From an uncultured Kiritimatiellota bacterium (GTDB lineage Bacteria > Verrucomicrobiota > Kiritimatiellia > RFP12 > DVOR01): DNA of 64,000 nucleotides. Shown here in pieces: positions 6,738 through 59,791 of this stretch (positions within the stretch are counted from its first letter, which is position 1; each line of letters begins with the position of its first letter). A model generated the notes under the pieces. That model had not been told where the DNA came from. It did not search any database and saw nothing but the letters and a program-made list of their open reading frames with translations. The stretch covers positions 1 to 64,000 of the forward strand of contig CALXMT010000002.1 in NCBI GenBank assembly GCA_944389545.1. The letters are read 5' to 3'. A program made the position numbers and the translations under genes.

Positions 6738-6747
6738 GTGGTATAAT
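6738..6747 (+). promoter_or_regulatory. Extended -10 promoter, near-leaderless
   Basis: GTGGTATAAT contains a perfect -10 (TATAAT, 6742-6747) with an upstream TGTGG. The start codon at 6755 lies only 7 bases downstream, so the transcript would begin at or almost at the ATG. Confidence 0.7.
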
Positions 6748-6754
6748 GCAGGGC

Positions 6755-11293: not shown

Positions 11294-11295
11294 CG

Positions 11296-11802: not shown

Positions 11803-11812
11803 GGCGGCTCCT

Positions 11813-12829: not shown

Positions 12830-12859
12830 GATGGCGTGTTCCTTGAAAAAGTCTGCGAT

Positions 12860-12868
12860 ATTCTATCA
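12860..12868 (-). promoter_or_regulatory. Internal promoter -10 before pheS
   Basis: The minus strand reads TGATAGAAT, an extended -10 (TGA + TAGAAT), about 30 bases before the pheS ATG and within the 48-bp gap after the upstream gene. Confidence 0.45.
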
Positions 12869-12877
12869 CATCCGCGC

Positions 12878-26486: not shown

Positions 26487-26610
26487 TTAAGGGTCTTTTT
26501 GAGACCCTATAGTGGTCCGAGGTCAACCACTATAGTGGTCGAGGGTGAGACCCTATAGTGGTCGGGGGCGAGACCCTATAGTGGTCCATGGCCGACCCTT
26601 ATAGGGTTCC
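26487..26610. repeat. Array of 23-bp CTATAG-centred repeats, array 1
   Basis: CTATAG cores begin at 26507, 26530, 26553 and 26576, with a decayed fifth (TTATAG) at 26599: an exact 23-bp period. Each core sits in a palindrome of the type GACC-CTATAGT-GGTC or CCACTATAGTGG. The array begins with CTTAAGGGT at 26486. It lies in the gap between the convergent acetyltransferase and murC-murB genes. Bases 26501-26541 occur identically, inverted, at 56995-57035. There are no spacers, so it is not a CRISPR. Function unknown; iteron-like protein sites or a structured RNA are possible. Confidence 0.85.
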
Positions 26611-42135: not shown

Positions 42136-42396
42136 AAGTTTAGAGGTTTAAAGACTTGGCGGCTGACCGTGGAAGGTTTGGCGCGTTGGGCCTGCATGGG
42201 CTTTCTCGCTGGGCCTCCGCCCCCATCCTTTCGGTTTGTCCGGGCTCCATCGGTCGTCCTGTACCTTCGCCGCTGACCGCGCTCTCCGCCCAGCGGAGGC
42301 GGGATGGTCTTCTTCTCTTTCTTCGTGGCAGGTCCTTTTAAAAGTGCGAAAACACACCATACTCTTCCCAAAAGAACCGGATTGAATCAAAGATAC
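42136..42396. other. Gene-free spacer after uvrA with a decayed repeat
   Basis: No gene seen. A degenerate copy of module B (GGGCTCCATCGGTCGTCCTG onward, 42241-42305) is present. No clear uvrA terminator was found. Confidence 0.5.
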
Positions 42397-42424
42397 TTGA
42401 CAAAATGGGGGGGGGTGGTATGTT
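42397..42424 (+). promoter_or_regulatory. Promoter with a nine-G tract in the spacer (candidate phase-variable switch)
   Basis: A consensus -35 TTGACA (42397-42402) and a -10 TATGTT (42419-42424) with an extended TGG are separated by 16 bases, nine of which are a continuous G run (42407-42415). Loss or gain of a G by slippage would change the spacer to 15 or 17 bases. About 200 bases of untranslated leader follow before the first gene. The elements are seen; phase variation is inference. Confidence 0.6.
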
Positions 42425-42633
42425 AATTAGCGTTCATGGTTTCAAGTGGACGTTTGCCTTCGGGTGCTCACAATAGGAGCGAGGGCGTCTAGGTCGGGCT
42501 TGGGAGATTTCCCCGCTTGCCCGACGGCGCCTTGACTTCTGGCAAGAACATCCGGGTTTGTCTGAACGAGGAAGGGCGTGCAGTTCTTCCCGATCTCCGC
42601 CAGGCACGGCAAGTAACGAAGGAGAGACGCGTC

Positions 42634-43974
42634 ATGAAACACACCTTGGCCTTGTTGGCCGTTGCCTGTGCGGCTTGCGTGCCGCAGGGACTCTTTGCGT
42701 CTTATCTGACAATCCCCAAAGAGCTCAAGCTCTCTGAAGAGGCTCTGTCGGCGATTGCCAAGCGGAGCTATGAGAGCGATCGAGGTTCCGCGGCGGTGTT
42801 TTGTCGCTTGGAGGGGCAGGGCGAACCCCATGAGGAGGCACTCTCGGAGCCCTATCGTATGCCGCGCGATGGGGAAATTGAGGTTGATGAGACGTTCTGT
42901 TTGCAGTCGACCCATCCGCAGGCGACATTCAAAATCGATGTCAATCCGGTGGCCGGGAGGGACAAGGAACTCTGGGTAAAGTTGGGGGGATTCACGATCA
43001 ACTTCGCGATTGACACGGGTTTAGGCGCGGCGGCGGCATTGCCAGGCTGGGCTGGGCTTGCCGGGAAAGCGGCGCAATATGGGAAATTGTTGGGGTATGA
43101 CTTTTTCGCCGATTGGTGGGCGGGGAAGGCGAATCAAGCGTTGCTGGAGTGGTATGCGAAGAATCCGGATTTCACTTTTGCGGAGGCGAAAATCGGGGAT
43201 GCTTATCACCCCGGCGAGCGGATTTATCGCTGGGCGGATGGGTCATCGCTTTCCTATGAAACCTTCGATGTCGCGCCCGCGATCCGGCCTTTCGTCGAGG
43301 GCGATCTCGCGCTTCTCACCTGTATCGTCATGAACACCGCCGACCAGGAGCGAACGGTTCTCCTGTCCGTTCGCTTGCCAGGTGATTCCTCTGTGGATCG
43401 TAAGGTGAGATTGCCCGCGAAGGGTGCCTGCAAGCTGTCGTTCTACACGTTGGAATGTGAGACCGATGAGGACGAGCACGGTAAAATCATCGTCTCTGTC
43501 GCCCAAGACGAGCAGGAGAAGATGAAGGAGGTCATCCCCAGACAGAACTGGCGTTGGGACACCTTGCGGCAGGGGACTCAGCTCCAAGGCGGAGAGATTG
43601 CCCTCTTCCTCAACACCTTCCAACCGAGCGCGCGTGTGCGGGAGGATGGGGACGCGTGCTTGGGAATCGCCAAATTGTACGAGGTCGGCGAGGCGATTGA
43701 GCAGTCGCAGGAAGAGGCGGTGCGGTGGTACCGCCGTGCGGCGAACCTGGGAAACACGGAGGCCAAGCGCAAGGTGACTGAGCTGACGGGTGAGCGCAAG
43801 CAACTCTCCGAAGCTGCGCTCCTTGGTGACGCGGAGGCCCAGTATGCGCTGGGGATGATTTATCTGGAAGGGCGCGGGGGGGCCAAGAACCTTGTGTTCG
43901 CGCGGCACTGGTTGACCAAGGCCGCGGAACAGGGCCATGCCGGCGCCAAGCAGGCACTTGAGACACTGCGATGA
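42634..43974 (+). CDS. Secreted Sel1-repeat protein (cluster gene 1)
   Basis: A 446-aa protein with a signal peptide (MKHTLALLAVACAACVPQG, then LFAS). Residues 130-165 are a glycine/alanine-rich hydrophobic stretch that may insert in or contact membrane. The C-terminal 110 residues hold Sel1-like repeats (ACLGIAKLYEVGEAI, EEAVRWYRRAANLGN, AQYALGMIYLEGRGG, WLTKAAEQGHAGAKQA). Sel1 repeats are protein-protein interaction units common in secreted and envelope proteins. GAAGGAGAG lies before the ATG. It opens the nine-gene operon, and its stop overlaps the next start (ATGA). Confidence 0.82.
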   Translation: MKHTLALLAVACAACVPQGLFASYLTIPKELKLSEEALSAIAKRSYESDRGSAAVFCRLEGQGEPHEEALSEPYRMPRDGEIEVDETFCLQSTHPQATFKIDVNPVAGRDKELWVKLGGFTINFAIDTGLGAAAALPGWAGLAGKAAQYGKLLGYDFFADWWAGKANQALLEWYAKNPDFTFAEAKIGDAYHPGERIYRWADGSSLSYETFDVAPAIRPFVEGDLALLTCIVMNTADQERTVLLSVRLPGDSSVDRKVRLPAKGACKLSFYTLECETDEDEHGKIIVSVAQDEQEKMKEVIPRQNWRWDTLRQGTQLQGGEIALFLNTFQPSARVREDGDACLGIAKLYEVGEAIEQSQEEAVRWYRRAANLGNTEAKRKVTELTGERKQLSEAALLGDAEAQYALGMIYLEGRGGAKNLVFARHWLTKAAEQGHAGAKQALETLR

Positions 43975-45452
43975 GCATACGCATGAAAGGAATTCTTACC
44001 ATGAGATTGAAGGTGTTGGCCGTGATGGCCTTGATGACATCCGCACTGTTCGCGAATTCGGAGTTGGACGAATTGCTCAAGAAGGCCAACGAAGGCGATG
44101 CGTGGTCGCAATATCAGGTTGGACGTGCCTATTATAAGAATAATATTGGCGCCGGGACGAATTACGCCAAGGCAGCGGAGTGGTTTGAGAAGGCTGCGTT
44201 GCAGGGTATCAAAGAGGCGCAGTTCTCTCTTGGCGTGTGCTGTGAGCGTGGCTATGGCAGGGAGCAGTCTTATAGCGATGCCGTTTATTGGTATCGTCGG
44301 GCGGCGGAACAAGGAGTCCCTGCGGCACAGTTTAACCTTGGCCTTCTCTATCAAAGAGGGGAGGGTGTGTCGCAGTCCGCGCAGGACGCCGCCAAGTGGA
44401 TCGCTAAGGCTGCGGCGCAGGGGTACTTGAATGCGCAAATCGATTTGGCGTGGCGCTATGCCGAAGGGAATGGTGTGTCACGCTCTTTGACAACGGCGAT
44501 TGAGTGGCGACGAACCGCCAACCGTAACGAGGAGATAGACGGGAGTGGAATGTTGTTGGCAGGGTTGCTCCAGCTTGGGTGCATGCTTGAGACTCAGCAT
44601 CATCCAGGGTGGGGTTCTCTTTCTAGTGAAGACGAGACACGTTTTCTCAAAGCTGCGGTTGTTCGTTATCCGGAAGACCTCTTCAGGACCAACAATTATT
44701 GGTGGCGTTACCAATCGGAGGACAAGTGGTTTTGCAGCGATGGCTTCCGGGCCGAGGTGTTTCAGGCCGCGGAGGATAGCCCACTCTTGATGGACATCCT
44801 CGTGCAGGCGTTCAGGCTGGAAATGAAGGTATGGCGTGATGGTCGGCCAAAGCCGAAGGTTTCCTATTGGGGGCCGAAGACGATTGGGGAGAAGATGCGA
44901 GGCGAGCCGCTTTTTACTTGGGCGGTATGGTCGTTGCGGGACGTCAAAGAGGCGGTCAACGCCCCGCTCTCTAAGCAGGCCTTGCTGAATCTGTTGGCGT
45001 CCTTGGACAAAATCGACCCGTTGTTGGGCATGGACTTGCTGAACCAAAAGGATGCCTCCGGCACCTTGCCGCTCTACTTGGCCATTCAGTTGCGGGAGAA
45101 CGACGTGGCGGAGGCGATGATACGGCTTTATGGAGGTTTTGCGATAAAGAAGTTGCGTGGGCGGGACCCTACGGGGAAGATCAAACCCTCCGGCGAGAAT
45201 CCCAATCAGGAGGCTTTTGACGTCAGCGTGATGGATTGCGCGGTACTGGCGGACAATGCGGAAATCATCCGTCTGCTGGTCACCCGATTCTCGTGGCCTC
45301 TCAAGGAAGAGTCTCTTTGGGGCGGGAATGCGAAGGATTCCCCGTTGAGCAAGGCGGAGTATTATGGTTGTCAAGAGGCCAAGCGCGCATTGATGGAGCT
45401 GAACGCCGGCAACACGCAGGCCACATCGAGCGGGGAAGGGATCTGGGAATGA
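43971..45452 (+). CDS. Secreted Sel1 and ankyrin-like protein (cluster gene 2)
   Basis: A 493-aa protein. The N-terminus MSIRMKGILTMRLKVLAV leads into a signal peptide ending SALFA. Three to four Sel1 repeats follow (residues 45-190; EWFEKAALQGIKEAQFSLGV, YWYRRAAEQGVPAAQFNLGL and AAKWIAKAAAQGYLNAQIDL). The C-terminal half has ankyrin-like units (LNQKDASGTLPLYLAIQ and MDCAVLADNAEIIRLLV) and is paralogous to the next gene. A second in-frame ATG at 44001 is possible, but the next gene has the same MSVRMKR start, which favours 43971. Confidence 0.82.
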   Translation: MSIRMKGILTMRLKVLAVMALMTSALFANSELDELLKKANEGDAWSQYQVGRAYYKNNIGAGTNYAKAAEWFEKAALQGIKEAQFSLGVCCERGYGREQSYSDAVYWYRRAAEQGVPAAQFNLGLLYQRGEGVSQSAQDAAKWIAKAAAQGYLNAQIDLAWRYAEGNGVSRSLTTAIEWRRTANRNEEIDGSGMLLAGLLQLGCMLETQHHPGWGSLSSEDETRFLKAAVVRYPEDLFRTNNYWWRYQSEDKWFCSDGFRAEVFQAAEDSPLLMDILVQAFRLEMKVWRDGRPKPKVSYWGPKTIGEKMRGEPLFTWAVWSLRDVKEAVNAPLSKQALLNLLASLDKIDPLLGMDLLNQKDASGTLPLYLAIQLRENDVAEAMIRLYGGFAIKKLRGRDPTGKIKPSGENPNQEAFDVSVMDCAVLADNAEIIRLLVTRFSWPLKEESLWGGNAKDSPLSKAEYYGCQEAKRALMELNAGNTQATSSGEGIWE

Positions 45453-46507
45453 GCGTGCGTATGAAAAGGCTTCTTCGCGTAGCGTTGGTGGGGTTGTTGT
45501 CCGCTTTGCCGGTCGCCCCCGGGTGGGCGACGCCGCTCACCGATTGCATCGACCGGGGGCGGCGCGCCGTCTTGGGAAACGACTTCAGCGCGGTAAGTGA
45601 GACGGAGCAGGCCGCGTATCTCCTCGCCTGTTACAAGGTGGATCCCGGTCGTTTCAAGCGAGAGCTTTCCAAGAAGGAACGGAAGCGCCTAAACAAGCAG
45701 GACGGAACGTTGATTGAGGACAATCCCGCTTTTGTGTTTGACCTCGGGCTTTTCACGTTCGTGGAGAGCTTGACTACGTGGAGCAAGACGGAGGCGGAGA
45801 TCAGGGAGGAGATCCGTGTGCGGGCTGAGGCGCTTGGTTGGATCCTGTGCGAGGTCTGTAGCGCGACGGAGAATGTGGGCGATACAAAGAACCCGGACTG
45901 GAGGACACGGGTTTCGGCTTTTTGGCGTCAAGGACAATCCGTCCGAGCGGGTGTGCCCATGCCGGGCGAGGACGACGCGGAGCCGTTCTTGACGTGGGCG
46001 ATTTGGAACCTGCGCGAATCCCCGTCCAACCGCCCCCTCTCGGAGGAGACCTTGGCCATTGTCATTGGGGCCATCAAAAAGAAGAATGCCGACGTTGCGA
46101 AACGGTTATGCAACCAACGGGATCGGCATGGGACGCTTCCCCTGTTCCTTGCCATCCAAGAGGGGCACAATCAAGTGGCCAAAGCCATCGTTCAAGTTTA
46201 TGGGCCGGAGGACCTGAAGGCTTTGCGGGGGAACGTGTTCGCGGGTGATGACGGGATGCGGGTCATGGACTGCGCGGTGCTTGCCGACAACGCGGAGATG
46301 GTGGAGTATCTGATTCGCAGTGGATGGGACATCAGTGATGAGCGCACCTGGGGAGGCCCGTGCGACCCGAATGGACGTCGCCTATCCCCCCTCATAAAGG
46401 CCGAGGCCAACGGCAAGCGTAAGGCTAGCCAAAAGCTGCAAGAGATCGAATTGTCTCGTGAACGTCAAAAAGAGAAGCAGGAGAAAGGGATATGGAGGCA
46501 GTTATGA
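45449..46507 (+). CDS. Secreted ankyrin-like protein, paralog of cluster gene 2 (cluster gene 3)
   Basis: A 352-aa protein with signal peptide MSVRMKRLLRVALVGL, cleavage near GWA. It shares with gene 2 the order AEPFLTWAIWNLRES, then CNQRDRHGTLPLFLAIQEGH and VMDCAVLADNAEMVEYLI, ending DERTWGGP. It has no Sel1 repeats. Two ankyrin-type repeats are likely. The gene overlaps its neighbours by ATGA on both sides. Function unknown; a duplication of the gene 2 C-terminal half is the simplest origin. Confidence 0.8.
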   Translation: MSVRMKRLLRVALVGLLSALPVAPGWATPLTDCIDRGRRAVLGNDFSAVSETEQAAYLLACYKVDPGRFKRELSKKERKRLNKQDGTLIEDNPAFVFDLGLFTFVESLTTWSKTEAEIREEIRVRAEALGWILCEVCSATENVGDTKNPDWRTRVSAFWRQGQSVRAGVPMPGEDDAEPFLTWAIWNLRESPSNRPLSEETLAIVIGAIKKKNADVAKRLCNQRDRHGTLPLFLAIQEGHNQVAKAIVQVYGPEDLKALRGNVFAGDDGMRVMDCAVLADNAEMVEYLIRSGWDISDERTWGGPCDPNGRRLSPLIKAEANGKRKASQKLQEIELSRERQKEKQEKGIWRQL

Positions 46508-49080
46508 ATGCATTGAAGGCGTCGCGATGGATGATTGCCGCGTTTCTGAGCGTCGGCTTGGGGTTTGCGCCGCTTGTCGGCGCCGCTGAGACAAAAGTTA
46601 CCGACGGATTGACCTTCGAGGCAAAGCGCGATGGGACCTACAAGTTGATCGACATCGATCGTACCCGGCGTTATTCCGTTATTGATTTGACTGAGGAGGC
46701 CTTGCGGGAGAGTTGCGGAGAGGGCATCATCGTCTCGGAGCTTTCAACCGAAGAGAAAGCGGTCAACGTTGGCGAGGACAAAGAGGATCTTTATCTGTTC
46801 GGCAAAGTGTTCGTGAAGCGCTTGGTCCTGCCTGGCTCCATTGAGAAGGTCGAGACGGTTAGCTTCACGGACATCAAAGGGCTGGAGGTCATCGAGTTCT
46901 CTGGGAGGGTTCCCTCCTTCGAAGAAGAGAAGGGGTGGTTCTTTTACGAGGACGACTGGCGCAACAAGTTGCAATATGTCGTCTTTCACGACGAGGTTGC
47001 ACCCGAGAGGCTGAACTCCGTACTCTCCGGCGTGCCGATCATCGAGTTCGCGCCGACGGCTCGCTTCGAGGGGGAGTTGCTGGACAAGAACTCGGGCCGC
47101 GCCAAAGGCCTCTTGGCCAAAGCTGGGGCGCTTACGCGTCTGGTGGTGCCATATAGCCTCGCCGTCCGGCTGGATATCCCGTGGCGCACCTACATCGCAC
47201 GCTCGCCGTTGGCCGACAAAGAGGTGGTCTCGCAGCCCAGCGCCAACGAATCCGGCGCGGATGGGACGGACGGCAGTGCGGTCTGTCTGTTGAACTGCGA
47301 CGAAGACGGGGAGATTTCGGACGCTGTGACGGATATCCGCCTGGACGCGTTGCAGGGAAGTGTCGAGGAGCGCATTTATCTGCCCACGCTCTTTCGCCGC
47401 TTTGTCGATCCCTACGTTGATCTTAGCCGTTATGAGGGGCGGTTGTGGCTCAAGCGTGACACTGTGCAGTTTTATCCGGACATCACGCAACGGATCGCGG
47501 ACACGCGGAAGGCGGACCAACTCTTCCCCACGATTTTCAAGTATGCCCAGGTCACCGCAACCTCGCCTTATCAGGGGTTGACCCTGCGCGCTGTCGCCGT
47601 CAATGAACTGGGCGAGAAGATCGGTAAAGAAATCGGTTCTGACGATCCGACGCTGCATGGTCTTGCCTACAATACTTCCCTGTCCTTGGAGATGGGAAAA
47701 CGCTTCGTGCTTTTCACCACGATGGCGTTGCCGACCGGGCAACACGTGCCGGTCTTTATTGATGGGGGGCGAAACGAGGCGGAGCTCTTTTTCCGCACCC
47801 CGGAGCAAAAGCCGTGGTTCCTTTCCGCTCTCTGTTGGATGGTGGGCATCATGTTGGGCTTGGCCTTCGTGATTGGGGCCATCTTGGTGTTGTTCCGGGA
47901 CTCTTGGCTGGACCGTGTCGTCGCGCGGCCCTTTTTGGAGGCGCCGTGGTGGAAGCAGGCGCTCTTTGCGCTGAGCCTTCTTTTGTTGGTGTTGGGCGCG
48001 CACGGCGTGCTGGCGAACTTGGTCCAGGTCTATCTCTGGGCGCCCGTCGTCCAATACGTCAACAACTCGTTCATCTCCTCCTTGGTCATCTCCATCACTA
48101 CGACCTTGCTACAGATGGGGCTTGGGTTACTCAAGGGCATTTCCATCCAGCCTTTCGGCATTGGTGTGGACTTGGAGCATGTCATCGAGCCGTGCACGGA
48201 TTTGTTGGCGCGCGTGGGATGGGTCAGCTGGATTTCCACCGGCGTGCTTGCCTTCTTGCGTGTGCTGAGTGAGATGTTGCGAGAGTTTGGGACGGTACTG
48301 TGGGTGTTCACCGGCGCGTTGGTGACGATGCTTGCCCTGCCGTTTAACGCTTGGCAACGGCTTCAGGCGCGTTGGCCTTGGTTCCGCGCCGCGGTCGGCA
48401 CGCTCTTCTTCCTAACGTTGGGGTTGCCGGTCTTCCTTGCGTGTTGCTCGTGGCTCTCCTTGCAGCTGATGACGCACGCGGGGAACACCTTCAACGATGC
48501 GTTGGCCACCTTCAAGTGCTTGGTGGACGCCTTTTCGTTCCAGGCCTTCCTGTCGCTGGATGGCATCCAATCGCTCACGATGTTGCTCACCGATGCCATG
48601 ACGGAGTTGACCGCGGCGGCGATCACATATGTCATGACCAAGGTCTTCGACTGCTTCTTGGTCCCGATTGGGCTGTTGTGGCTGAGTTTGCGCGTCCTGA
48701 AGAAGTTCGGCGTTGTCAAAGACCTGAACTTGCGGACGTTCCTTGAGAAGGATCGCTTCCAAAAGCGCTTTCTGCCCGAGCGTGAGGCGAAGGAACCGGC
48801 GTTGCCGGCCGTGGACGCCGCCGTACCCCTACCTGCGCCGGACACCGCCATCGATTCCGGCACGGCGCCAAAGCCTGTCGCGGAACCTGTACCTGCTTCT
48901 GATGTCGCCGTCAACTCTGGCTCAGCGGCAAAGCCTGTCGCGGAACCTGTACCTGCTTCTGATGCCGCCGTCGACCCTGGTTCGGAAGCAAAACCTGTTG
49001 CGGGACCTGCATCGGTGCCGACGGAGCCGACTCCTGGATGTCACAGCCCAAAAGAGGAGAACAATCATGTCAAAGCATGA
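46504..49080 (+). CDS. Large polytopic envelope protein (cluster gene 4)
   Basis: An 858-aa protein with an N-terminal signal (AAFLSVGLGFAPLVGAAET) and an extracytoplasmic region to about residue 440. That region includes a leucine-rich-like part (KRLVLPGSIEKVETVSFTDI and GLEVIEFSGRVP, as in BspA-type LRR_5). About eight hydrophobic segments follow between 445 and 745, then a soluble tail of about 110 residues. The tail has three copies of a 20-residue unit containing KPVAEPVPASD. No family recognised for the membrane part. ATGA overlap with gene 3; gene 5 starts inside its last 14 bases. Confidence 0.75.
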   Translation: MNALKASRWMIAAFLSVGLGFAPLVGAAETKVTDGLTFEAKRDGTYKLIDIDRTRRYSVIDLTEEALRESCGEGIIVSELSTEEKAVNVGEDKEDLYLFGKVFVKRLVLPGSIEKVETVSFTDIKGLEVIEFSGRVPSFEEEKGWFFYEDDWRNKLQYVVFHDEVAPERLNSVLSGVPIIEFAPTARFEGELLDKNSGRAKGLLAKAGALTRLVVPYSLAVRLDIPWRTYIARSPLADKEVVSQPSANESGADGTDGSAVCLLNCDEDGEISDAVTDIRLDALQGSVEERIYLPTLFRRFVDPYVDLSRYEGRLWLKRDTVQFYPDITQRIADTRKADQLFPTIFKYAQVTATSPYQGLTLRAVAVNELGEKIGKEIGSDDPTLHGLAYNTSLSLEMGKRFVLFTTMALPTGQHVPVFIDGGRNEAELFFRTPEQKPWFLSALCWMVGIMLGLAFVIGAILVLFRDSWLDRVVARPFLEAPWWKQALFALSLLLLVLGAHGVLANLVQVYLWAPVVQYVNNSFISSLVISITTTLLQMGLGLLKGISIQPFGIGVDLEHVIEPCTDLLARVGWVSWISTGVLAFLRVLSEMLREFGTVLWVFTGALVTMLALPFNAWQRLQARWPWFRAAVGTLFFLTLGLPVFLACCSWLSLQLMTHAGNTFNDALATFKCLVDAFSFQAFLSLDGIQSLTMLLTDAMTELTAAAITYVMTKVFDCFLVPIGLLWLSLRVLKKFGVVKDLNLRTFLEKDRFQKRFLPEREAKEPALPAVDAAVPLPAPDTAIDSGTAPKPVAEPVPASDVAVNSGSAAKPVAEPVPASDAAVDPGSEAKPVAGPASVPTEPTPGCHSPKEENNHVKA

Positions 49081-50542
49081 TAAGAGAAAGTTGGTACGTA
49101 AGTGTTCGAAAGTGTGGCGGGATTACGGGCGTTTTCTGTCCGTCTTGGGGTGCGTCTCCTTGGTGGTTCTGGGCGCCCTTGGCCTCTGGGTTTTGAGGAG
49201 CGAGCCGAAAGAGATTGAAGAGGTTCCCGTGGAGCTTATCCCGGGCGGGTTGCCCCGTCCGAAGGGGGCCGCGCCGGTCTATGATGCCGAGAAAGCCGCG
49301 GACCATGCCGCAATCTTTCTGTTGCGCTTCCAGCGCTACAACGACTTCCGAAAGATTGATATGACCAATCAGGCGTTCGCGAATGCCTTCCTCCGGACGG
49401 ACATGGCAAAGTCGGAACTCAGCAACAAGGCGGTCTTGGAGGATCTCGCCTGGGCGTGGGCACGGTATCCAGGCCGAGAGGCGAAGCAGGCGAACCCAGA
49501 CAGCGCCGGCTACTATTGGTGGTTCTATCGGCATACCGCGGGAGGGCGGACCAACTTCCTCTTGCTCGCCGAGCCCGCAACCGGACTCCGGGCTGACCCA
49601 TGGCTCTTTGCCTATGGCAATGAAATGGCGTTGCTGAATGGCCTCCGTAAGGAGTTGCTCCGCCCCCTCTCTGAAGAAGATGCCGAGGCGGTCATCCGCA
49701 TGCTTAACACGACAGAGGACAATCGGTTGGGGACGGCGTTGGTTGACTTCCTCGCCCCGAAGTATGCACGCCCGAAGAAGCAAGCGCCCATTGAGGCAAC
49801 CCTCGCACAGAAGACCCTGCGAGCCTTCCAGCGGGACTTGCTGAATGCCGAACGTGCAAATGCCGGGAAGCCCTTGACGGTGGAGCAGGTCGATGCCTGT
49901 TGGGAGCGGAACCTGCCGAAGGGCAAGGAGGGGGAGATCATGCGCGAAAAGGCAGTCTTCACTTTCACCGGGTCTGGATCGTTTGCCCGGTTGCATCTGG
50001 CGTTGAGGCGCGAGGACGGGAAGAGTTACGCCGTGCTCAGCTCCATCTCCCTGGAACCCGATGGGGAGCCGGTGGAAGGGGGCCGCAACCATATCCTGGA
50101 GACGGTCAATCACGCGTTTCCCGTACGAGGCGAACCTGTCGCCTCAAAGGAGGTGGCTCAGGCGCTTCAAGCGGGCGGGGAACAAGAGTTTGAGGCGGTC
50201 TGGGAGGTCGTCCGTGCGATTTGCCAAGAGCCGGCCTTCGCCAATCAGTGGCCGGCCTCGAACGTCATCCGTCTTCGCCTTCGCCAGCAGGGAATGGGGC
50301 AGGCGCTTGAGGACAAGTCTTGGGTGCTCTATCCGAACGATGCGGGCGTGATTTACCTTTGCCGCTTCCCAGTGGCCAACATGGATTCCGAGTCCGCGGT
50401 CGGCGTGAAGGCCGATTTGGTTGCGCCCCTATTGGCGCCGAAGTGCACTCCCGTCAAGCCGACAGAAGCCACTTCGGGCTCTGTCCCGCTCGCCATTGAC
50501 GTGGCGAATTGGGAAGACAGTCAACCTTTGTCTCGCAATTGA
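49067..50542 (+). CDS. Membrane-anchored extracytoplasmic protein (cluster gene 5)
   Basis: A 491-aa protein with a basic N-terminus, a single transmembrane anchor at about 25-45 (FLSVLGCVSLVVLGALGLWV) and a large soluble part. Residue blocks such as RPLSEEDAEAVIRMLNTTED echo the ankyrin-like paralogs of genes 2 and 3 weakly. No known domain. AGAGGAGA before ATG 49067. The bitopic layout would suit a linker between the transporter and the secreted proteins, but that is inference. Confidence 0.7.
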   Translation: MSKHDKRKLVRKCSKVWRDYGRFLSVLGCVSLVVLGALGLWVLRSEPKEIEEVPVELIPGGLPRPKGAAPVYDAEKAADHAAIFLLRFQRYNDFRKIDMTNQAFANAFLRTDMAKSELSNKAVLEDLAWAWARYPGREAKQANPDSAGYYWWFYRHTAGGRTNFLLLAEPATGLRADPWLFAYGNEMALLNGLRKELLRPLSEEDAEAVIRMLNTTEDNRLGTALVDFLAPKYARPKKQAPIEATLAQKTLRAFQRDLLNAERANAGKPLTVEQVDACWERNLPKGKEGEIMREKAVFTFTGSGSFARLHLALRREDGKSYAVLSSISLEPDGEPVEGGRNHILETVNHAFPVRGEPVASKEVAQALQAGGEQEFEAVWEVVRAICQEPAFANQWPASNVIRLRLRQQGMGQALEDKSWVLYPNDAGVIYLCRFPVANMDSESAVGVKADLVAPLLAPKCTPVKPTEATSGSVPLAIDVANWEDSQPLSRN

Positions 50543-50574
50543 GAACCACTCCTACAATCAAGAAAGGATCGAGT

Positions 50575-52455
50575 ATGAAAAGCACTTTCTTAGCATGGGT
50601 TTGCGGCCTCATCGGGGCCGTTGGCATCAGTTTGCCGGCATACGCGGACGGCACATTTGTCCCCTCCGGCACCTGGCCGAAACGTACTGCAGACATTGAT
50701 CGGGAAACGCGCCTCCAAGAGTGGAAGGAGTTTTGGACGCCGGGGAAAAAGGTGAGTTACGATGTTTCCTACACGCTGGTCGGCGACTTTAAGGTCGCTG
50801 GGTTGGATGGGTTGCCTGCGAGCATTCGTTATTTGGTCACGGATGCAAATGAAAACCTGCCTTTCACCGTGGGCGTGAATGGGACTCAGACCGCGACAGT
50901 TTTGCCGCTTGCTGCGTCTCTCAAAACGGGACTCTGGCAATGGTTTGGCTATGACGATAATGGGACCTTTCGTATGGGGGCGCAAGCAACACTCGGCGAC
51001 AACAAGATGATGCGTAACGCAATGGGTCGGTACGTTACGCGTGTCGCCGCGCGCGCGGGTTCCTCCCAATACGATGAGTTGCGTGAAAACTACAAGAAAG
51101 AGCATTGGGCGATAACGGCGTGGTTTAGTGAACGTGTCCCTTGGGGAAAACTTCATGAGCAAATGAATGACCTCGACCAAAAACAGAAAGAGGCGTGGAA
51201 CAGTGCTTTCGGAGACTATAAGACCTACTCGGATGGTGACGAGAGTACCGTGTTCATCGACCCGCGTCACGATGCACGATTCGGGCGTGAATTGCGCGAG
51301 GTTCAGTTGTATGGCGAAGTCCAAAACGCGACGCTGAGCTTCGTGGAGGAGTTCGATGGGCGTCTTCTGTTCCTCTACGCTCAACCGAAAGCAAAGACCT
51401 ATTCTGTCCCATTCGTCGAAATCATGGAAGGCCTTTCCATTTACTATGGGGAGAATGGCGAAGAGAAGTTGGACGAGGTTTGCGCTAAAAAGATGAAGGC
51501 CATCCACGACCACTTGAGCCCTCATTCCGAAGCGTCCGTGAATGCGTGGCGCAAACGCGTCGAGAAGCGTCGTACGATTTGTCGGAACCGTTCAGAGCTC
51601 ATTCGGTCAATCGAGGCCGATTTGCGTGACCGTGGGGTCTATTCCGTCGCGAATCTCTATTGTGAACTTGGCGCTTACCAAGGCAATACTGAAATCTGGG
51701 TGCCCGAGATGACAGATACCGACCGAGAGAGCCTGGAATCCATGTCCGATGTGCTTTTCATCGACGTTAATCGCGGGAACGTCCCCAATGGCCCCGCGCT
51801 TATCTGGGGTGTTGAACGTCTGAAGGAGGGTGGGACCCTGGAGTTCAACGTCAATTGCGAGGGGCGTCACCCCAGTGCTTCGTGGGCGTTTCCCGGTGCC
51901 ATCTTCAACCAATACATGCACCGCGATTGGTTGGATTATGAGTTCTCTGGGGATTCTTCCGTGGTTGTGACCCGCGAGGAGGATGATACGTACAATGGAC
52001 GCGAATGTTACGTGTTGCGTATCGAGAAGGGGAGCAATCAGTTGCGGGAATGGCAGTGGGACGAGAAGACGCACACGGCCAAACCGATCGGCCCTATGCG
52101 TTCCAAGCAGACGAAGTTGGAATTGCGTCCCAAACTCGGGGTCGCCAACCGCCCGACCTTTGAGTGGGCGGGTACCTTCAAGCGCGAGGGCGATGAATTG
52201 TTGAATAAAATCTACATTGACAAAGCGAGCGGGCAGATTCTCTTCTTTCGGATTCCGCTCATTGCGAAAATCGGAAACATGGACAATCTGGTGGTTGGGG
52301 ATGCCGTTGAAGGCTTGAAACTCGCTCCCAATTCCACCGTGGAGGTGGACTTCAGCGTCACCTTGCAGCCGGACGATGGCCGTAACTGGGGGTTCTTGCG
52401 CAAAAAAGTCCAAGAGGAGCACCCGCTCTATTCCACCATGTCGGAGCTGCTGTGA
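50575..52455 (+). CDS. Secreted protein of unknown function (cluster gene 6)
   Basis: A 626-aa protein with a classic signal peptide (MKSTFLAWVCGLIGAVGISL, then PAYA-D). The mature part is rich in Trp, Tyr and charged residues with beta-rich segments. It contains no motif I recognise. AGAAAGGATC before ATG 50575, 32 bases after gene 5. Its C-terminal region (NKIYIDKASGQILFFRIPL, then VEVDFSVTLQP) looks like a beta-sandwich. Confidence 0.7.
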   Translation: MKSTFLAWVCGLIGAVGISLPAYADGTFVPSGTWPKRTADIDRETRLQEWKEFWTPGKKVSYDVSYTLVGDFKVAGLDGLPASIRYLVTDANENLPFTVGVNGTQTATVLPLAASLKTGLWQWFGYDDNGTFRMGAQATLGDNKMMRNAMGRYVTRVAARAGSSQYDELRENYKKEHWAITAWFSERVPWGKLHEQMNDLDQKQKEAWNSAFGDYKTYSDGDESTVFIDPRHDARFGRELREVQLYGEVQNATLSFVEEFDGRLLFLYAQPKAKTYSVPFVEIMEGLSIYYGENGEEKLDEVCAKKMKAIHDHLSPHSEASVNAWRKRVEKRRTICRNRSELIRSIEADLRDRGVYSVANLYCELGAYQGNTEIWVPEMTDTDRESLESMSDVLFIDVNRGNVPNGPALIWGVERLKEGGTLEFNVNCEGRHPSASWAFPGAIFNQYMHRDWLDYEFSGDSSVVVTREEDDTYNGRECYVLRIEKGSNQLREWQWDEKTHTAKPIGPMRSKQTKLELRPKLGVANRPTFEWAGTFKREGDELLNKIYIDKASGQILFFRIPLIAKIGNMDNLVVGDAVEGLKLAPNSTVEVDFSVTLQPDDGRNWGFLRKKVQEEHPLYSTMSELL

Positions 52456-52457
52456 CA

Positions 52458-53606
52458 ATGAGTGCGAGTCTTCGGGAAACGTCTCCATCCGCCCTTGTCC
52501 TTGCGGAGGCAAACCCGAATCGAAAGGGTTTGCTGTCCGCGGGGGACATGGAGTCCCAACTCCCCTCTTATGGGTTTTTGGTCGAGGGGCTTCGCGTGAC
52601 GCCCTCGACTTCCCCATGGGAATGGGTCCGCAGGAGGGTGGCGGGGATATTGTTGATGGCCTTGCCGGAGCGCCCCAACGCCCCGTTGCCGTCATCCGTC
52701 AATTTTGACGCGGGGGACGGCGCGGCCGTGATGCGAGCGATTGCCGAAGCTCGGGAGGGGGGGCGCCTCTGGAACCTCGTGCGCGGGGTACTTGGCGGTG
52801 TGCGACGGAAAGTCTGCGAGTGGGATAGGTCGGCACCTTGGACCCCGATTATCCGGGTTCCGGGTACGTTGCGAATTGGCCCCGGCATCCACATTGTGCG
52901 AGGGAGGAGTGGGCATGGGAAGAGCCTGTTGCTTAGTTTGCTGGCCGGGTATCCGATCCCTGGCGCCCAGATTCAGGCTACTCGGTTTTATGCTTGCCGT
53001 CGAGACCTCTCCGCACATCGCCGCTGGTATCCGTTTCGGAAATCGGGAACCCTTCCCGTTCGCAGAGAACTCTGTAAACTCTATCGCAAGGTTCCTTGCA
53101 TCTTTCTTCCCCAGACACTGCCCATTGTGCCAAAGGGACAGATGACCGTCGCGAGGTTGCTTTCCATCGTTTCGGATGGTATCTGCGCGATTCGCGGGGT
53201 TTCCCGCGCACGTCACGCCAATCTGCGGAAACTGTTGCGTGCCGTTCTTGGCGACAGCGCAAAGTGGCAGGACGATATACTCGCCTTGTTGTACAAGGAC
53301 GTGAACGCGCTCTCCGGCGGCGAACGGCGGCGCGTGGAAGTCATCGCCAGGCTCATCGGCCTGAAGAAGTTGCTCACCCCTGGGTCTGTCTTGATTATGG
53401 ACGAGCCGACAACCGGGCTGGACGAGGAGAACGCCCGGGAGTTTTTTAGGCTGATAGAGACCGTCTGCGATGATTCCGTCACCGTCCTCATCGCCACGCA
53501 CGAGAAGGAGTCCGTTGTCTCGCGTCGGTCGACCATTTTCGTGCGCAGACGGGATTCACGGCGGGGACAGCCGCTCATCTATATTCGGCAACGCGCTGAG
53601 GCTTGA
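52458..53606 (+). CDS. ABC transporter ATPase with N-terminal extension (cluster gene 7)
   Basis: A 382-aa ATPase. Residues 1-135 are an extension not found in standard ATPases. The nucleotide-binding domain has Walker A GRSGHGKS (149-156), Q-loop FLPQT (about 216-220), signature LSGGE (285-289), Walker B VLIMDEP (311-317) and H-loop H348. The D-loop GLDEENA is present, so the domain should be active. The next gene encodes a permease, so the two form a split transporter. Start ATG 52458, or GTG 52452 overlapping the previous stop. Confidence 0.88.
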   Translation: MSASLRETSPSALVLAEANPNRKGLLSAGDMESQLPSYGFLVEGLRVTPSTSPWEWVRRRVAGILLMALPERPNAPLPSSVNFDAGDGAAVMRAIAEAREGGRLWNLVRGVLGGVRRKVCEWDRSAPWTPIIRVPGTLRIGPGIHIVRGRSGHGKSLLLSLLAGYPIPGAQIQATRFYACRRDLSAHRRWYPFRKSGTLPVRRELCKLYRKVPCIFLPQTLPIVPKGQMTVARLLSIVSDGICAIRGVSRARHANLRKLLRAVLGDSAKWQDDILALLYKDVNALSGGERRRVEVIARLIGLKKLLTPGSVLIMDEPTTGLDEENAREFFRLIETVCDDSVTVLIATHEKESVVSRRSTIFVRRRDSRRGQPLIYIRQRAEA

Positions 53607-53621
53607 GACAAGGGGAACGCG

Positions 53622-55328
53622 ATGTTTGGATTGAGATCGTTTGACTTGCGCTTGGATTTGCGCCGGATTTGGGTGACGACCCGATTGAGTGCGTGGGACT
53701 TGATAGTGCCGGTCCTGTTGGCTGGCGCGCTTGTCTTCATCTTTATCTTCCGCGGAACGCCGGAGGACGCTTTTTCGACCTTTATTTTCTTCTCCACGCT
53801 CTATTTCTTTTGGACGGGCCTCTTCGCCACTTGCCAAATCGTCAATGGCGCCATTGAGTCAGGGGAGTGGGCCTATTGGGTGCTTGGGACGCGCCGTGCA
53901 ATCAAGACCTACCTTGTCGCGCAGGTGATTTACCAAGCATTTCTGATGTTGCTTATCACTGTGGCATTTTGCGCGACCTTGCTTCTCCTTTGTTGGGTTG
54001 GGCGCGGTTATTGGACGGATGCGCTTGTGAATCCCTATATTGGACCAGAGACCTATGACGTCATCTGCCCCAAGGAGCTCGCGCTCTTCTTGGGCGACGA
54101 GACGGCCGGGAAACTTGCCGAGACGGAGGCATTGGTTCGCTGGGGCATCCTGGCGCGCTTTGTCCTTTTCCATGGCGTGGGGCTGTTCTGTGCCGGTTTC
54201 GCCGGTATCGTGATTGGACTGATCCTGAGTGGAACCTTCCGCAAGCCGCTCCATTCCATCACCGCGGCAATCTTTATGGTCATGGTGACGATTGTCGTTT
54301 CTTTCACCTCGCTCAATGCGACACGCCTCGATGATGGGCAGGACAATCCGCTTTCCCTTTCCGATCACTCCCGCCCCCCGCTTTTCCTTCCCGTGCTTTA
54401 CGCATGGCAGGAGCACGCCGTGCAGGGCCGCCCGTTCTGGGATATTGTCGCGCCGCCGGTCGAATATCCTGCGCCGCAGCGCTACTTGGAGAATGACCCA
54501 ATCGCGGTTTTGAAGACGGTGGACAGACCTTTGCTCTCGCATTCCTTGGGAGGGCGCGGAATCTTCTCTTGGCTTCACGCCGTCTCTTTCTTCCTGCCGC
54601 AACGTTATTTCTTTAACATCTCCCATGTGACCGTTCCGCGCTATGGCTACCTCTCCAGGGGCGGAGCCTGGGGAGGAATGGCGTGGGGCGGCGGCGATGA
54701 GGGCGCGAATGCGGAGAACGTGACAAAAAATCCCTGCACGCGGCGCGAGGATGGGGTGTATTGTCCTTGCGTGTATTGTCTGCAGCTTGTCCCCCATGCC
54801 TCCTTCAATCCTTTCCGTTTCCTGACAGACGAGGATTGGCGGCGGTTACAGGAAGTGCAGGCACGTCTGGGGTATTATCCCGGCATTCGATATGATTACG
54901 CGCAGATTCATGGGCGCTATAGTAAATGGGACACCCCGAAAAACCGCGCGACCGCCGACGCATTGGCGCCGGATCGGCAAGCCGTCTGTTGGCTGGACGA
55001 CTATGAGCCGAGATGGAAGTCCGGCATGGGCTCCGCCTATAGTTGCATTCCGGACTGCTTCAAGGATTCGGAGACCTACTTTGGCGTTGATTTGGACGAG
55101 CTCGAAGAGGATGACCGGCGGTTGGCTCTGGAGACGCTCGAACGCGTGCGCGCAAGCATCCGCCAGTCTCGGGCGGAGGAATTGGAAATCCTCTACGGCC
55201 TGTGGTGGAAGACGGTAGGGGGAGAGTTCCTCGCACTTCTATGTTCCATGGCGCTTTGGATTGTGATTTATCGCGTTATTTTGCTTCCCATCTTGCCGAT
55301 CCGCACCCAACTTCAGACCTTACGATGA
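53622..55328 (+). CDS. ABC-2/ABCG-like permease with a large extracytoplasmic loop (cluster gene 8)
   Basis: A 568-aa protein. It has an amphipathic start (LDLRLDLRRIWVTTRLSAWD) then five transmembrane helices (about 27-44, 53-75, 103-127, 171-205 and 217-236). A loop of about 295 residues and a final helix near 535-555 follow. A short helix, TM1-TM5 and a large loop before TM6 is the layout of ABCG-type permeases. The loop has Cys-rich NPCTRREDGVYCPCVYCLQL, perhaps disulfide-bonded. Paired with the ATPase 15 bases upstream. Substrate unknown. Confidence 0.75.
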   Translation: MFGLRSFDLRLDLRRIWVTTRLSAWDLIVPVLLAGALVFIFIFRGTPEDAFSTFIFFSTLYFFWTGLFATCQIVNGAIESGEWAYWVLGTRRAIKTYLVAQVIYQAFLMLLITVAFCATLLLLCWVGRGYWTDALVNPYIGPETYDVICPKELALFLGDETAGKLAETEALVRWGILARFVLFHGVGLFCAGFAGIVIGLILSGTFRKPLHSITAAIFMVMVTIVVSFTSLNATRLDDGQDNPLSLSDHSRPPLFLPVLYAWQEHAVQGRPFWDIVAPPVEYPAPQRYLENDPIAVLKTVDRPLLSHSLGGRGIFSWLHAVSFFLPQRYFFNISHVTVPRYGYLSRGGAWGGMAWGGGDEGANAENVTKNPCTRREDGVYCPCVYCLQLVPHASFNPFRFLTDEDWRRLQEVQARLGYYPGIRYDYAQIHGRYSKWDTPKNRATADALAPDRQAVCWLDDYEPRWKSGMGSAYSCIPDCFKDSETYFGVDLDELEEDDRRLALETLERVRASIRQSRAEELEILYGLWWKTVGGEFLALLCSMALWIVIYRVILLPILPIRTQLQTLR

Positions 55329-56524
55329 GGACCCCAATGAAACGTCTGTTCTTGCCCGTCTTTCTGTGCTCCGCTTGTGTGCTGTTCGCGCAAGCCCCAA
55401 AAGACAACACTACGGGACCGTCTTATGAATTCACGCAACGGATGGACTTCTCGTATATCCGGTTCGTGTTCCGCAATGGTGCGGAGTTCACGGATTTGTT
55501 GGGTTCTTCCCTGTCTTATCGCCTTAGGCTCCCGATTTGGCGCGATAATGAGGGGAAGTGGGACTTTGCGGACGTTCAGGATGTTCCTATCGAGAAAAGG
55601 GTGACGGTCAGCCTCTCCCAGGATGACCTTGAACGGGAGTTCCTGGGCACGCTTCTGAAAGATACATTGTTACAACGTGACCTCAACGGCAGGTTCTTGT
55701 CGCCCATGAGTCTGTATCCGACCAACTTGGAACGACCGTGCGTCACGGAAATCCTGCCGGCCCTGCAACGCTATTTGTTGCAAGGGGAACGCTGTTATCC
55801 GCATACGGGCTTTCTGCCTTACGTGCGACGGGGCCCATTCTCAAGCAGCATTGGTGAGCCAACCCTACTCAACGCTTTGGCAGACCCCGGCCGATTCTCG
55901 GTGACAGAGACACCACAGCGTACGATTCGGGTCGAATACAATCCCGAGAGCGGGCGTGCCACTGGTTCCTACACCATTTTTGGACGCTTCGGCAGTTGGT
56001 CGAGCAGCGCGAATTTCACGGTGTTGGACGAGTCGGACGCGATTTGCGCGGAAGTCGACCCCTATCTTGGTCTCTTGACCCAGGCGAGCTTAAAGATCGT
56101 GCTCGAATCTGTCCCAAAAGACGGATCCTTGGTCGCCATGCGCGGCGGGGACTCAGAGTTGTGTGAGATTAAACTTCCGACAGCGCGGTTCTTCATCGAT
56201 TTGCGGTTGCGCCCCGCGGAATCTCCTGGGAAACCTAACCGATATGAGAATTATTTCGTCAGCGATGACGGCGAGAGTTTCGAGCTGAACGCCGCCGAAG
56301 CCGCGGGAAAGATGACCATTCGGCTCTTCCGAAACCTGCGAATCGCTCAAGACCGTGCCACCTTCGAGATTGAGTGCGGTGAACTGACGCCGCGGGGAGA
56401 CGCGTTCGTCGGGAAAGCCAAGGATGGTTCTGAGCTGAGGTTGACGAAGACGGATTCTGGTTGCACGGTTTCGTGGGAACCTGCCAACCTGCGCAAGCCT
56501 ATTCAATTCTCGCGTGCGGACTGA
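55325..56524 (+). CDS. Secreted protein of unknown function (cluster gene 9)
   Basis: A 399-aa protein with a signal peptide (MKRLFLPVFLCSACVLFAQ, counting from the second ATG at 55337). The ATG at 55325 overlaps the permease stop (ATGA). The mature part is beta-rich with repeated FxVxxxDG patterns, no known domain. It closes the operon; no strong terminator was found after it, only weak hairpins. Confidence 0.72.
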   Translation: MRTPMKRLFLPVFLCSACVLFAQAPKDNTTGPSYEFTQRMDFSYIRFVFRNGAEFTDLLGSSLSYRLRLPIWRDNEGKWDFADVQDVPIEKRVTVSLSQDDLEREFLGTLLKDTLLQRDLNGRFLSPMSLYPTNLERPCVTEILPALQRYLLQGERCYPHTGFLPYVRRGPFSSSIGEPTLLNALADPGRFSVTETPQRTIRVEYNPESGRATGSYTIFGRFGSWSSSANFTVLDESDAICAEVDPYLGLLTQASLKIVLESVPKDGSLVAMRGGDSELCEIKLPTARFFIDLRLRPAESPGKPNRYENYFVSDDGESFELNAAEAAGKMTIRLFRNLRIAQDRATFEIECGELTPRGDAFVGKAKDGSELRLTKTDSGCTVSWEPANLRKPIQFSRAD

Positions 56525-56860
56525 GTTCCCCTGTGGTTTCGCATAGATTTTTAAGAAGCGCTTAAAGGGAATTGGAAGTTCGGAGGCTTGGCTTTCTTTG
56601 TAGAGGGGGCACCTCCGCCCTTTATAATCGATAATGAAAAAGAGGACGATAGACACAAAGTGAGGTGGGATGTATGTAGAAAGGTCGGGTCGAATAGGGC
56701 CAAGAAGATAAAAAGTACGTATTATGAGGTAAATTTCGACCCTTTTGCGAAACCAGAAAGAGCGCTCGATTCGGAGAATACTGGGATTAATCTTACTTTG
56801 TCGACTCTTTTTACTTTTTTATCACCGACTTAAAAGCCTTCGCTTCCTTGTTTATGCCTT
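56525..56860. other. AT-rich gene-free spacer after the nine-gene operon
   Basis: A frame of 81 codons (56588-56833) exists but has no ribosome-binding site, low coding character and no recognisable family; I do not call it. The stretch holds GAGGGGGC/GCCCTT at about 56605 as a weak hairpin. Base composition is much lower in GC than neighbours. Confidence 0.5.
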
Positions 56861-56898
56861 AAAAAGATGAGGGCTTCCTCCTTCAAGAGGGAGCCCTC
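56861..56898 (-). terminator. Minus-strand Rho-independent terminator
   Basis: GAGGGCT and AGCCCTC (within 56869-56898) form a stem of about ten bases with one mismatch, followed on the minus strand by ATCTTTTT. There is no minus-strand gene nearby, so it would end a transcript that passes through the 23-bp repeat array at 56951-57055. Confidence 0.65.
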
Positions 56899-56950
56899 AA
56901 AGGTAGTGTTTACCATCCTTTCCAAGCGTCCTCTAAAGGTCCCTTTCTGG

Positions 56951-57055
56951 ACCACTATAGGGTCTCGCTATGGACCACTATAGGGGTCGACCCCCGACCA
57001 CTATAGTGGTTGACCTCGGACCACTATAGGGTCTCGCCTCGAACCCTTAAGGGTC
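56951..57055. repeat. Array of 23-bp CTATAG-centred repeats, array 2
   Basis: CTATAG cores begin at 56955, 56978, 57001 and 57024 (exact 23-bp period), with a fifth centre CTTAAG at 57046. Bases 56995-57035 are the reverse complement of 26501-26541 without mismatch. Outer parts (CTTAAGGGT on one side and GAAAGG on the other) also match, so about 150 bp is homologous to array 1, inverted. Confidence 0.85.
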
Positions 57056-57178
57056 TCGCGAAAGGCCTTTAGGGAGTCTCTCAGAAACCGTCAGTCCTTT
57101 CGGTTGGGGTCGCCTTATTGCTGTTTCTATCTGTGAAACTTTTCATGCAATAAAACGCGTCAAGTCAACGTTCTCCGC

Positions 57179-57208
57179 TTGACGGGGTGGCGTGGGATGG
57201 GATAAACT
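57179..57208 (+). promoter_or_regulatory. Promoter upstream of the 57.4-kb gene
   Basis: TTGACG (57179-57184) and TAAACT (57203-57208) with 18 bases between, about 150 bases before the coding start. Confidence 0.4.
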
Positions 57209-57355
57209 AATCCCGTAAATGGAAAGGGAAACGCAAGTGGCGGTCTATGCACAGAGTTTGACATTCAGCGTTGTGACGATACTTGCAAGGCAGAGGAACG
57301 TCGTCTTTGGAGTGCTTTTTAAGAGTAGTCAGGAAGGGTTGAATAAGTGGGGACG

Positions 57356-58690
57356 ATGAGATTCTTAGGATTGTGTTGTTTGCTCCTGGCTGTTGAGGCT
57401 CGGGGATGGGAGGAGGGCGCGTATCCGATTCTGTTGGCCGCGGAGGATAGGTTTGAGCCTGTCGGCGTGGTGGATCGTTTCGGAACCATCCAATGTGCAC
57501 GAGGCGTCTATGTGTATCCGCCGTCGTTTGCGGATGGCGCCGACTCGGGGTGGGCGATTCGTCGTCGCGACGGTGTGGTCGTTCATGTGGATAAGGTGGG
57601 GAATGAGCGTTTCGAGTTGCCGGAAGCGTGGTTTGACGATGTTCATCCTTGGGCGGTTTATGCGAATATCTCGGAGGGAGAGCTTGTCTGTTTCGTCGAC
57701 GCGTTGGAGTTGCCGAAAGAGGAAGAGCGGCGGTATGTATGCGTGAACAGCCGGGGGGTGCCGAGCCGGGTGTATGAGGGAAACGGGACGGCGTTTTATC
57801 ATGGCCGTGCGGTCGTGAGGCGTGATGGATGGGTCTATTTGTTGGACCATGATTATCGAGAGGTGCCGGTGTGCAGGGATGTGGAGGGGATAACGGTCGG
57901 TGAATTTTGGAATGGGCCTTATGCGGTGCTTGTGCTTCGCCATCCACGCGCGAAGGTTTGGGAGAAGGCAAGAAGAAGAGAGGAGTGGGCTCGGCGGCGA
58001 TCGCAGTTCTCACGGAAGAGGCGCAGCCAAGGCGGGGGTGGTCCGAGAGCGGCGGAGGTGGCATCCATCATCCCCGCCATTGAGGATTGGCCATGGCCAT
58101 ACGATACGGTGCGGATAGTGAACAGGTTTGGCGAGCGTGTGGCGGAGGTTCCGCTTGTGGAGGATGATGGGAACATGTATGCGCTCTTGCGGTGCGTTTC
58201 CTCAAAGGGGTGTTTTGTCCCGGTGTTGGATGTCCAAGGACGTGTCCGCTATCGCTACTATCTCTTTGCGGAGCGCCGCTACTTGGAGGACTTCGCTTGT
58301 GAGCGTATTTTGGGGGATGGGTTTCAGGACGATGCGGCATTTGTCCGGATTGGGGATACGGTCTTTATCTTTGAGGCGGATGGCCGTTTGAGTCGGTTGG
58401 ATGAGGTCTATCTCAGTGGAGAAGAAGGGGCTTCGGATTTCGTTTCAAGCGGGTTTCATTATGGCCATGCTTTGATGCAACGACGCGATGGGAGTCGCGT
58501 TTTCATCGATAAGCATGGTGCCGCAATCAAAGAAGTGCCAGGGGCGTGGGGGAAGATTGAGCCAATCGCAGGTTGCCCGCTTTGGGAAGTCCGTGAATCC
58601 ATGCCGAATAACCGCTGTCGAACACTTTTCTTGGATAGACAGTTGAATGTGATTGAGACCGGGGATTTGCTGGAGCATGACCGTCTTTAG
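57356..58690 (+). CDS. Secreted protein with WG-like repeats
   Basis: A 444-aa protein with a probable short signal (MRFLGLCCLLLAVEARG). Several segments follow the pattern hydrophobic-D/N-x-x-G (VVDRFGTIQ, HVDKVGNERFELP, RIVNRFGERVAEVP, FIDKHGAAIKEVPG), like the WG repeats of secreted bacterial proteins; they recur through the whole length. The start could also be GTG 57347. Its GC content is lower than the core genes. Function unknown. Confidence 0.68.
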   Translation: MRFLGLCCLLLAVEARGWEEGAYPILLAAEDRFEPVGVVDRFGTIQCARGVYVYPPSFADGADSGWAIRRRDGVVVHVDKVGNERFELPEAWFDDVHPWAVYANISEGELVCFVDALELPKEEERRYVCVNSRGVPSRVYEGNGTAFYHGRAVVRRDGWVYLLDHDYREVPVCRDVEGITVGEFWNGPYAVLVLRHPRAKVWEKARRREEWARRRSQFSRKRRSQGGGGPRAAEVASIIPAIEDWPWPYDTVRIVNRFGERVAEVPLVEDDGNMYALLRCVSSKGCFVPVLDVQGRVRYRYYLFAERRYLEDFACERILGDGFQDDAAFVRIGDTVFIFEADGRLSRLDEVYLSGEEGASDFVSSGFHYGHALMQRRDGSRVFIDKHGAAIKEVPGAWGKIEPIAGCPLWEVRESMPNNRCRTLFLDRQLNVIETGDLLEHDRL

Positions 58691-58716
58691 TTGTATTTAC
58701 AAGAAAAGGTGCTTCC

Positions 58717-59677: not shown

Positions 59678-59736
59678 AGGCAGAGTTGTTTGTCTCCATC
59701 TGGGAGCTCTTGGGGTGCAGGGTGGTCGCTTTTTGT

Positions 59737-59742
59737 TACAAT
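59737..59742 (+). promoter_or_regulatory. Promoter -10 of the nucleotidyltransferase gene
   Basis: TACAAT, about 50 bases before the chosen start; it overlaps an earlier in-frame ATG, which argues against that start. Confidence 0.4.
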
Positions 59743-59791
59743 GGCATCTGTTTTGAGAAGCGATGTGTCGGCATTGCAAAGGAGAAGCGAT

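Follow-up and report, generated by a model that had tools for sequence, protein, structure and literature searches.

Type V ABC transporters, the class with the ABCG, ABCA, and Wzm fold, share one ABC ATPase and a six-helix permease that bears a large domain between its fifth and sixth helices (TM5 and TM6). An N-terminal elbow helix and, in the TM5-TM6 segment, re-entrant helices are further traits of the class (PMC8386196). Other described systems join an ABC motor to extracytoplasmic partners. NosDFY pairs a separate ATPase and ABC-2 permease with such proteins, and the type VII systems YbbAP-TesA, LolCDE, and FtsEX, built on four core helices with a periplasmic domain after the first, have dedicated periplasmic partners. 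In YbbAP-TesA, the ABC motor works with a periplasmic partner (PMC12646458).

Here we describe nine genes, g1 to g9, from a bacterium of the genus Candidatus Spyradenecus, which NCBI taxonomy files under Lentisphaerota. They lie within a 64,000-nucleotide stretch of DNA, referred to below as the window. An initial annotation, made by reading the DNA, recognized no described system with this set of genes. Our searches of Pfam, NCBIfam, PADLOC, PHROGs, and PDB sequences likewise matched no characterized system, and we found no description of such a gene set in the literature. Its products most likely form a machine of the ABC-2 type, serving export or envelope assembly, in which the partners are new.

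A compact row of nine co-directional genes

Nine plus-strand open reading frames occupy positions 42634-56524, as first annotated. The ATGA overlaps remarked on at that stage were located at four junctions (g1-g2, g2-g3, g3-g4, and g8-g9, each -4 bp); the remaining junctions measure -14 bp (g4-g5), +32 bp (g5-g6), +2 bp (g6-g7), and +15 bp (g7-g8). For four genes, we judged the start sites at 46504 (g4), 49067 (g5), 50575 (g6), and 52458 (g7) to be the better ones, that of g4 being backed by the ATGA overlap and a GGAGG site. A promoter-like site upstream of g1 agrees with the consensus at 10 of 12 bases, and an Rfam search of the region returned 0 matches. The features of the locus are as follows.

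42147..56828, no strand: exchangeable block (cassette), GC 57.4% versus 65.7% in the left (upstream) flank; unrelated 6.2 kb in its place in sister genome G003
42397..42424, plus strand: predicted promoter-like site 5' of g1, TTGACA-16-TATGTT with TG, top score in a consensus scan
42634..43974, plus strand: g1, signal peptide, unique 330-aa region, two Sel1 repeats (Pfam Sel1, E 5.6e-18)
43971..45452, plus strand: g2, signal peptide, four Sel1 repeats, ankyrin-like C-terminus (Pfam Sel1, E 2e-25)
45449..46507, plus strand: g3, signal peptide, ankyrin-like C-terminus (Ank_2, E 4.2e-12)
46504..49080, plus strand: g4, BspA-type LRR domain, beta-rich region, ~8 membrane helices
49067..50542, plus strand: g5, one N-terminal anchor and a large extracytoplasmic domain
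50575..52455, plus strand: g6, exported protein with a signal peptide-like start, no family match
52458..53606, plus strand: g7, ABC ATPase with intact motifs (ABC_tran, E 1.2e-6)
53622..55328, plus strand: g8, ABC-2/type V-like permease with a ~300-residue TM5-TM6 domain and invariant C372, C381, C383, and C386
55325..56524, plus strand: g9, exported protein, lipoprotein-like start in both relatives

The repeat proteins carry signal peptides

Sel1 repeats were confirmed in g1 and g2, as was the proposed pair of ankyrin-like paralogs: the C-terminal halves of g2 and g3 are 42% identical over 175 aa, and the two genes are related copies of what is a single gene in the relatives described below. 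By inspection, g1, g2, and g3 all begin with signal peptides, as does the g2/g3-type relative in genome G008. The suggestion that these are soluble adaptors of the ATPase is therefore not supported, since the signal peptides would put them across the membrane from g7 and make them envelope parts rather than cytosolic adaptors.

Other predictions about the exported products stood. A single N-terminal membrane segment marks g5 as an anchored protein in all three genomes that carry it, while g6 and g9, annotated as secreted, have export-type starts. By eye, g6 was suspected to be LolA-like, a candidate that we dropped for lack of Pfam support. PDB sequence searches with profiles of g5, g6, and g8 gave nothing significant.

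Gene order is conserved at different chromosomal sites

Two other genomes placed in the same genus, G015 and G008, carry related clusters (C11:27178-38099 and C82:10315-21242, respectively). Each has one g2/g3-type gene followed by g4 to g9 in the order and on the strand seen in the window, with gene spacings of -19 to +60 bp. Local protein identity to these relatives is 45-47% for g4, 29-31% for g5, 30-32% for g6, 44-48% for g7, 41-43% for g8, and 25-34% for g9; searches with single genes gave 46-51% for g4, 29-32% for g5, 30-33% for g6, and 27-28% for g9. The three clusters sit at different sites: judging by neighbor-gene products read by eye from the translations, the window cluster adjoins uvrA and proS, that of G008 adjoins ATP synthase genes, and that of G015 adjoins CinA-like and IlvE-like genes. 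In G015, the g2/g3-type gene (L010 7076-7200) seems to open in a different reading frame: a stretch resembling a signal peptide precedes a run of eight G, suggesting a sequence error or a frameshift.

The full set is patchy in the genus (3 of 17 genomes), and g8 is absent from all the remaining genomes of the genus. Among 388 genomes sampled from the phylum, there was no further g4 relative, and a g8 search of the sampled genomes found, beyond the genus, only one distant g7-g8 pair. The first gene lies outside the conserved set: apart from its Sel1 repeats, a common feature of the genus, no part of it has relatives there. The order of genes 4 to 9, which the initial annotation had singled out for comparison across genomes, is thus kept in three genomes of one genus. 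As a unit, the nine-gene set held for g3 to g9, whose order is conserved, but not for g1, which is missing from the relatives. The minimal conserved unit is the g7-g8 pair, and the genus-level core is g3-g9.

These data also bear on whether the genes are chance neighbors, that is, unrelated lineage-specific genes collected in an island. The missing g1 and the fast divergence of g5, g6, and g9 fit such a history, but three genomes have the g3-g9 order and its tight spacing in common at different sites. Because that order is conserved in three diverged genomes, we regard chance grouping as excluded for practical purposes and give it almost no probability.

The nine genes are replaced as one block in a sister genome

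Sister genome G003 matches the DNA flanking the cluster at 94-98% identity. It keeps uvrA on one side; on the other side is a 434-bp element, with proS later. Between window positions 42146 and 56829, G003 instead holds an unrelated 6.2 kb (L112, G003:C7, about 7590-13763, versus window 42147-56828) whose products include a TIR-TPR-RCC1 protein and an SPFH zinc-ribbon protein; the SPFH gene was found in no other genome of the genus. Since exactly 42147-56828 is replaced, g1 to g9 behave as one exchangeable cassette. This whole-block presence or replacement is independent evidence that the nine genes travel together, and the uvrA-proS interval is a variable slot. No integrase was seen at the exchanged block. 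A phage or plasmid origin was considered and found unsupported, as viral contigs and phage genomes held no relatives and plasmids none above chance.

Several further features were observed. A second, smaller exchanged segment adjoins the cassette (window 57263-58714 versus L112 about 4470-7159), with one 447-aa gene in the window and three other genes in G003. A dispersed repeat with a 23-bp period (GGACCACTATAGGG...) occurs at ~40 places in the genome, among them window positions 56949-57031 and 26505-26587; one copy stands just past the right cassette border, and the repeat has a strong predicted fold (z -5.1 over 56820-57262). An RlaP-type nucleotidyltransferase (PF10127, E 9e-86) is encoded at window positions 59690-60595, after the variable region and before proS.

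The content of the slot in G003 raises the question of a strain-variable cassette for defense or inter-bacterial conflict, in which the ABC machine would act at the envelope by sensing or expelling a toxin, phage component, or peptide. The TIR-TPR and SPFH-zinc-ribbon genes in the same chromosomal slot, the patchy presence of the cluster, its low GC content, and its LRR, ankyrin, and Sel1 repeats are all consistent with this idea. Against it, PADLOC returned generic ATPase similarity for g7 and one weak PtuA match for g2, with no system-defining anti-phage gene matched among g1-g9; the block has no nuclease, toxin, or immunity gene; and the searches of viral, phage, and plasmid sequences speak the same way. 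We therefore consider a defense role improbable.

An intact ABC ATPase is paired with a type V-like permease

The assignment of g7 as an ABC ATPase was upheld: its Walker A (GRSGHGKS), signature (LSGGERRR), Walker B (LIMDEPTTGLD), and H-loop (IATH) motifs are intact, and the motifs are conserved in the five g7-type proteins, which places g7 in the ABC ATPase superfamily. The 135-residue extension attributed to this protein proved not to be conserved. Its open frame reaches ~130 residues upstream of the core, the first ~90 being open only in this genome, and the relatives start ~30-60 residues before the core.

By hydropathy, g8 has 5+1 membrane helices in the proteins of the window, G015, G008, and L087, with one extra weak peak in the loop of the G015 protein. 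Between helices 5 and 6 lie 270-300 residues in the genus and ~110 in the distant relative. The Cys-rich loop of 295 residues noted at the outset corresponds to ~300 residues with 7 Cys, of which C372, C381, C383, and C386 are invariant in the three genomes; an invariant PQRYFFN motif falls within a helix predicted in the TM5-TM6 segment. Six helices, the last two of them separated by a large domain, are the layout of type V transporters.

Fold comparisons point the same way, with qualifications. The AlphaFold model of g8 is of low confidence (mean pLDDT 56). In a Foldseek search with this model, ABCG25, ABCG16, ABCG1, and NosY rank first, and the first 25 of 42 matches are ABC transporters, mostly ABCG or NosY; the probability reaches 1.00, but the best E value is 0.19 with a TMq of about 0.27. 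A helix at residues 9-20 and helices at 309-322/326-334, modeled with low to middling confidence, suggest that g8 may have the elbow and re-entrant helices of the class. At the level of sequence, g8 has no Pfam match, and comparison of its profile with three ABC-2 sets of related genomes gave none either; its distant relative matches PF12679 weakly (E 0.008).

The original description of a split ABCG-like transporter is thus sustained by layout and fold, but not by an ABC-2 sequence profile or by a fused ABCG chain. In all five genomes, ATPase and permease are separate genes, unlike ABCG and as in Wzm-Wzt, so the term ABCG-like describes the layout correctly but does not denote membership. Compared with type V transporters generally, this locus adds a ~300-residue Cys-bearing loop and unique envelope partners to a permease without an ABC-2 sequence match. 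It differs from NosDFY in that the cluster has no nitrous oxide reductase gene and no partner that matches NosD in sequence.

The same comparisons bear on mechanotransmission, in which ATP use by g7-g8 would only move the outer domain and drive partner proteins, without substrate transport, with envelope remodeling, enzyme activation, or cofactor delivery as outputs, as in FtsEX, LolCDE, or NosDFY. Many dedicated extracytoplasmic partners accompany the single ATPase and permease, NosY is among the best fold matches of g8, the best ATPase matches of g7 include LolD and FtsE, and YbbAP-TesA offers a precedent. However, g8 differs from type VII, which has four core helices and a domain after the first, in having six helices and its loop between the fifth and sixth; the ATPase matches of g7 are unspecific; and no partner enzyme is recognizable in the cluster. 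On balance, purely mechanical work seems rather unlikely.

An LRR domain is fused to a polytopic membrane protein

The large protein g4 has, as first described, an LRR-type N-terminus and a polytopic C-terminus. Sequence matches of the N-terminus to the BspA-type LRR group are weak, but its fold matches PDB 4oju and 4gt6 (prob 1.00 and 0.99, E 8e-5 to 9e-4), which identifies the BspA-type LRR fold. The likeness to BspA-type LRR surface proteins lies in this domain; here, by contrast, it is fused to a membrane domain of ~8 helices (TM scan) that belongs to no known family. Past residue 240, the g4 model is too poor for the membrane domain to be compared.

A distant g7-g8 pair has flanking proteins of similar layout

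In two genomes of another class, G196 and G221, relatives of g7 and g8 are adjacent (hmmsearch E 2e-32 and 3e-33). They stand in a row of an anchored protein (193 aa), an exported protein (489 aa), the ATPase (349 aa), the permease (358 aa), and a second exported protein (364 aa). In the distant permease, the Cys motif is absent and the loop is mostly missing, while GEW.YWVLG.RR and PQRYFFN are retained. In layout and position, the proteins flanking the pair are like g5, g6, and g9, but they have no significant sequence similarity to them, which limits any claim of a broad system; identification of the anchored and exported neighbors as homologs of g5 and g9 was rejected on these grounds. The best of the flanking comparisons, g6 with the 489-aa protein (Z 3.7 over 60 shuffles), is suggestive only. 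Upstream of the distant cluster (L086 15295-17670) are a small FtsK/SpoIIIE-type ATPase and a Sel1-repeat zinc-ribbon protein.

A proposed ABC-driven envelope machine

Taken as a whole, the cluster is best explained as one transcription unit, g1-g9, within an exchanged cassette that encodes an ATP-driven envelope machine, a combined reading that we consider probable. That the machine is an ABC-driven envelope machine is, for its part, very likely. The conserved order, the overlapping co-directional genes, the intact ATPase, the six-helix permease, the whole-block replacement in G003, and the distant g7-g8 pair, likewise accompanied by an anchored protein and two exported ones, all argue for it. 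Counted against it are the weak g8 model, the lack of an ABC-2 profile match, the restriction of the full set to three genomes, and the distant-lineage neighbors, which are not significantly similar in sequence; in addition, no finding in the cluster points to a substrate, and an outer-membrane exit part was not found. Of the export or surface-assembly machine first proposed, the ABC-driven envelope machine is thus favored, but the adaptor role of the repeat proteins is unsupported.

Beyond the intact ATPase and six-helix permease, we infer the steps of a mechanism from the anatomy of the proteins. Two copies each of g7 and g8 would assemble in the inner membrane as a transporter of type V (ABC-2), whose ATP cycle may move a hydrophobic or chain-like substrate outward or pull it from the membrane; we lean slightly toward such export or extraction over pure mechanical work. 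The large g8 loop could serve as a docking place and pass the substrate to the extracytoplasmic partners g6, anchored g5, and lipoprotein-like g9. A second membrane platform, g4, would display the LRR recognition domain, with the Sel1/ankyrin proteins g1-g3 as putative scaffolds on the outer side of its membrane. That these parts amount to a new kind of machine, combining a two-gene ABC-2 motor, an outer Cys cluster (metal-binding or disulfide-bonded), an LRR polytopic protein, and Sel1/ankyrin scaffolds in a hot-spot cassette, is a more doubtful proposition, and we consider it unlikely.

The gene set is apparently undescribed, and its exported partner proteins occur almost nowhere else. The window genome (G000) and G003 form a natural presence/absence pair, with precisely this block as their difference at the locus. 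Should the partners bind g8, they would represent a new accessory architecture for type V ABC transporters and give several orphan protein families of a poorly known lineage their first working context.
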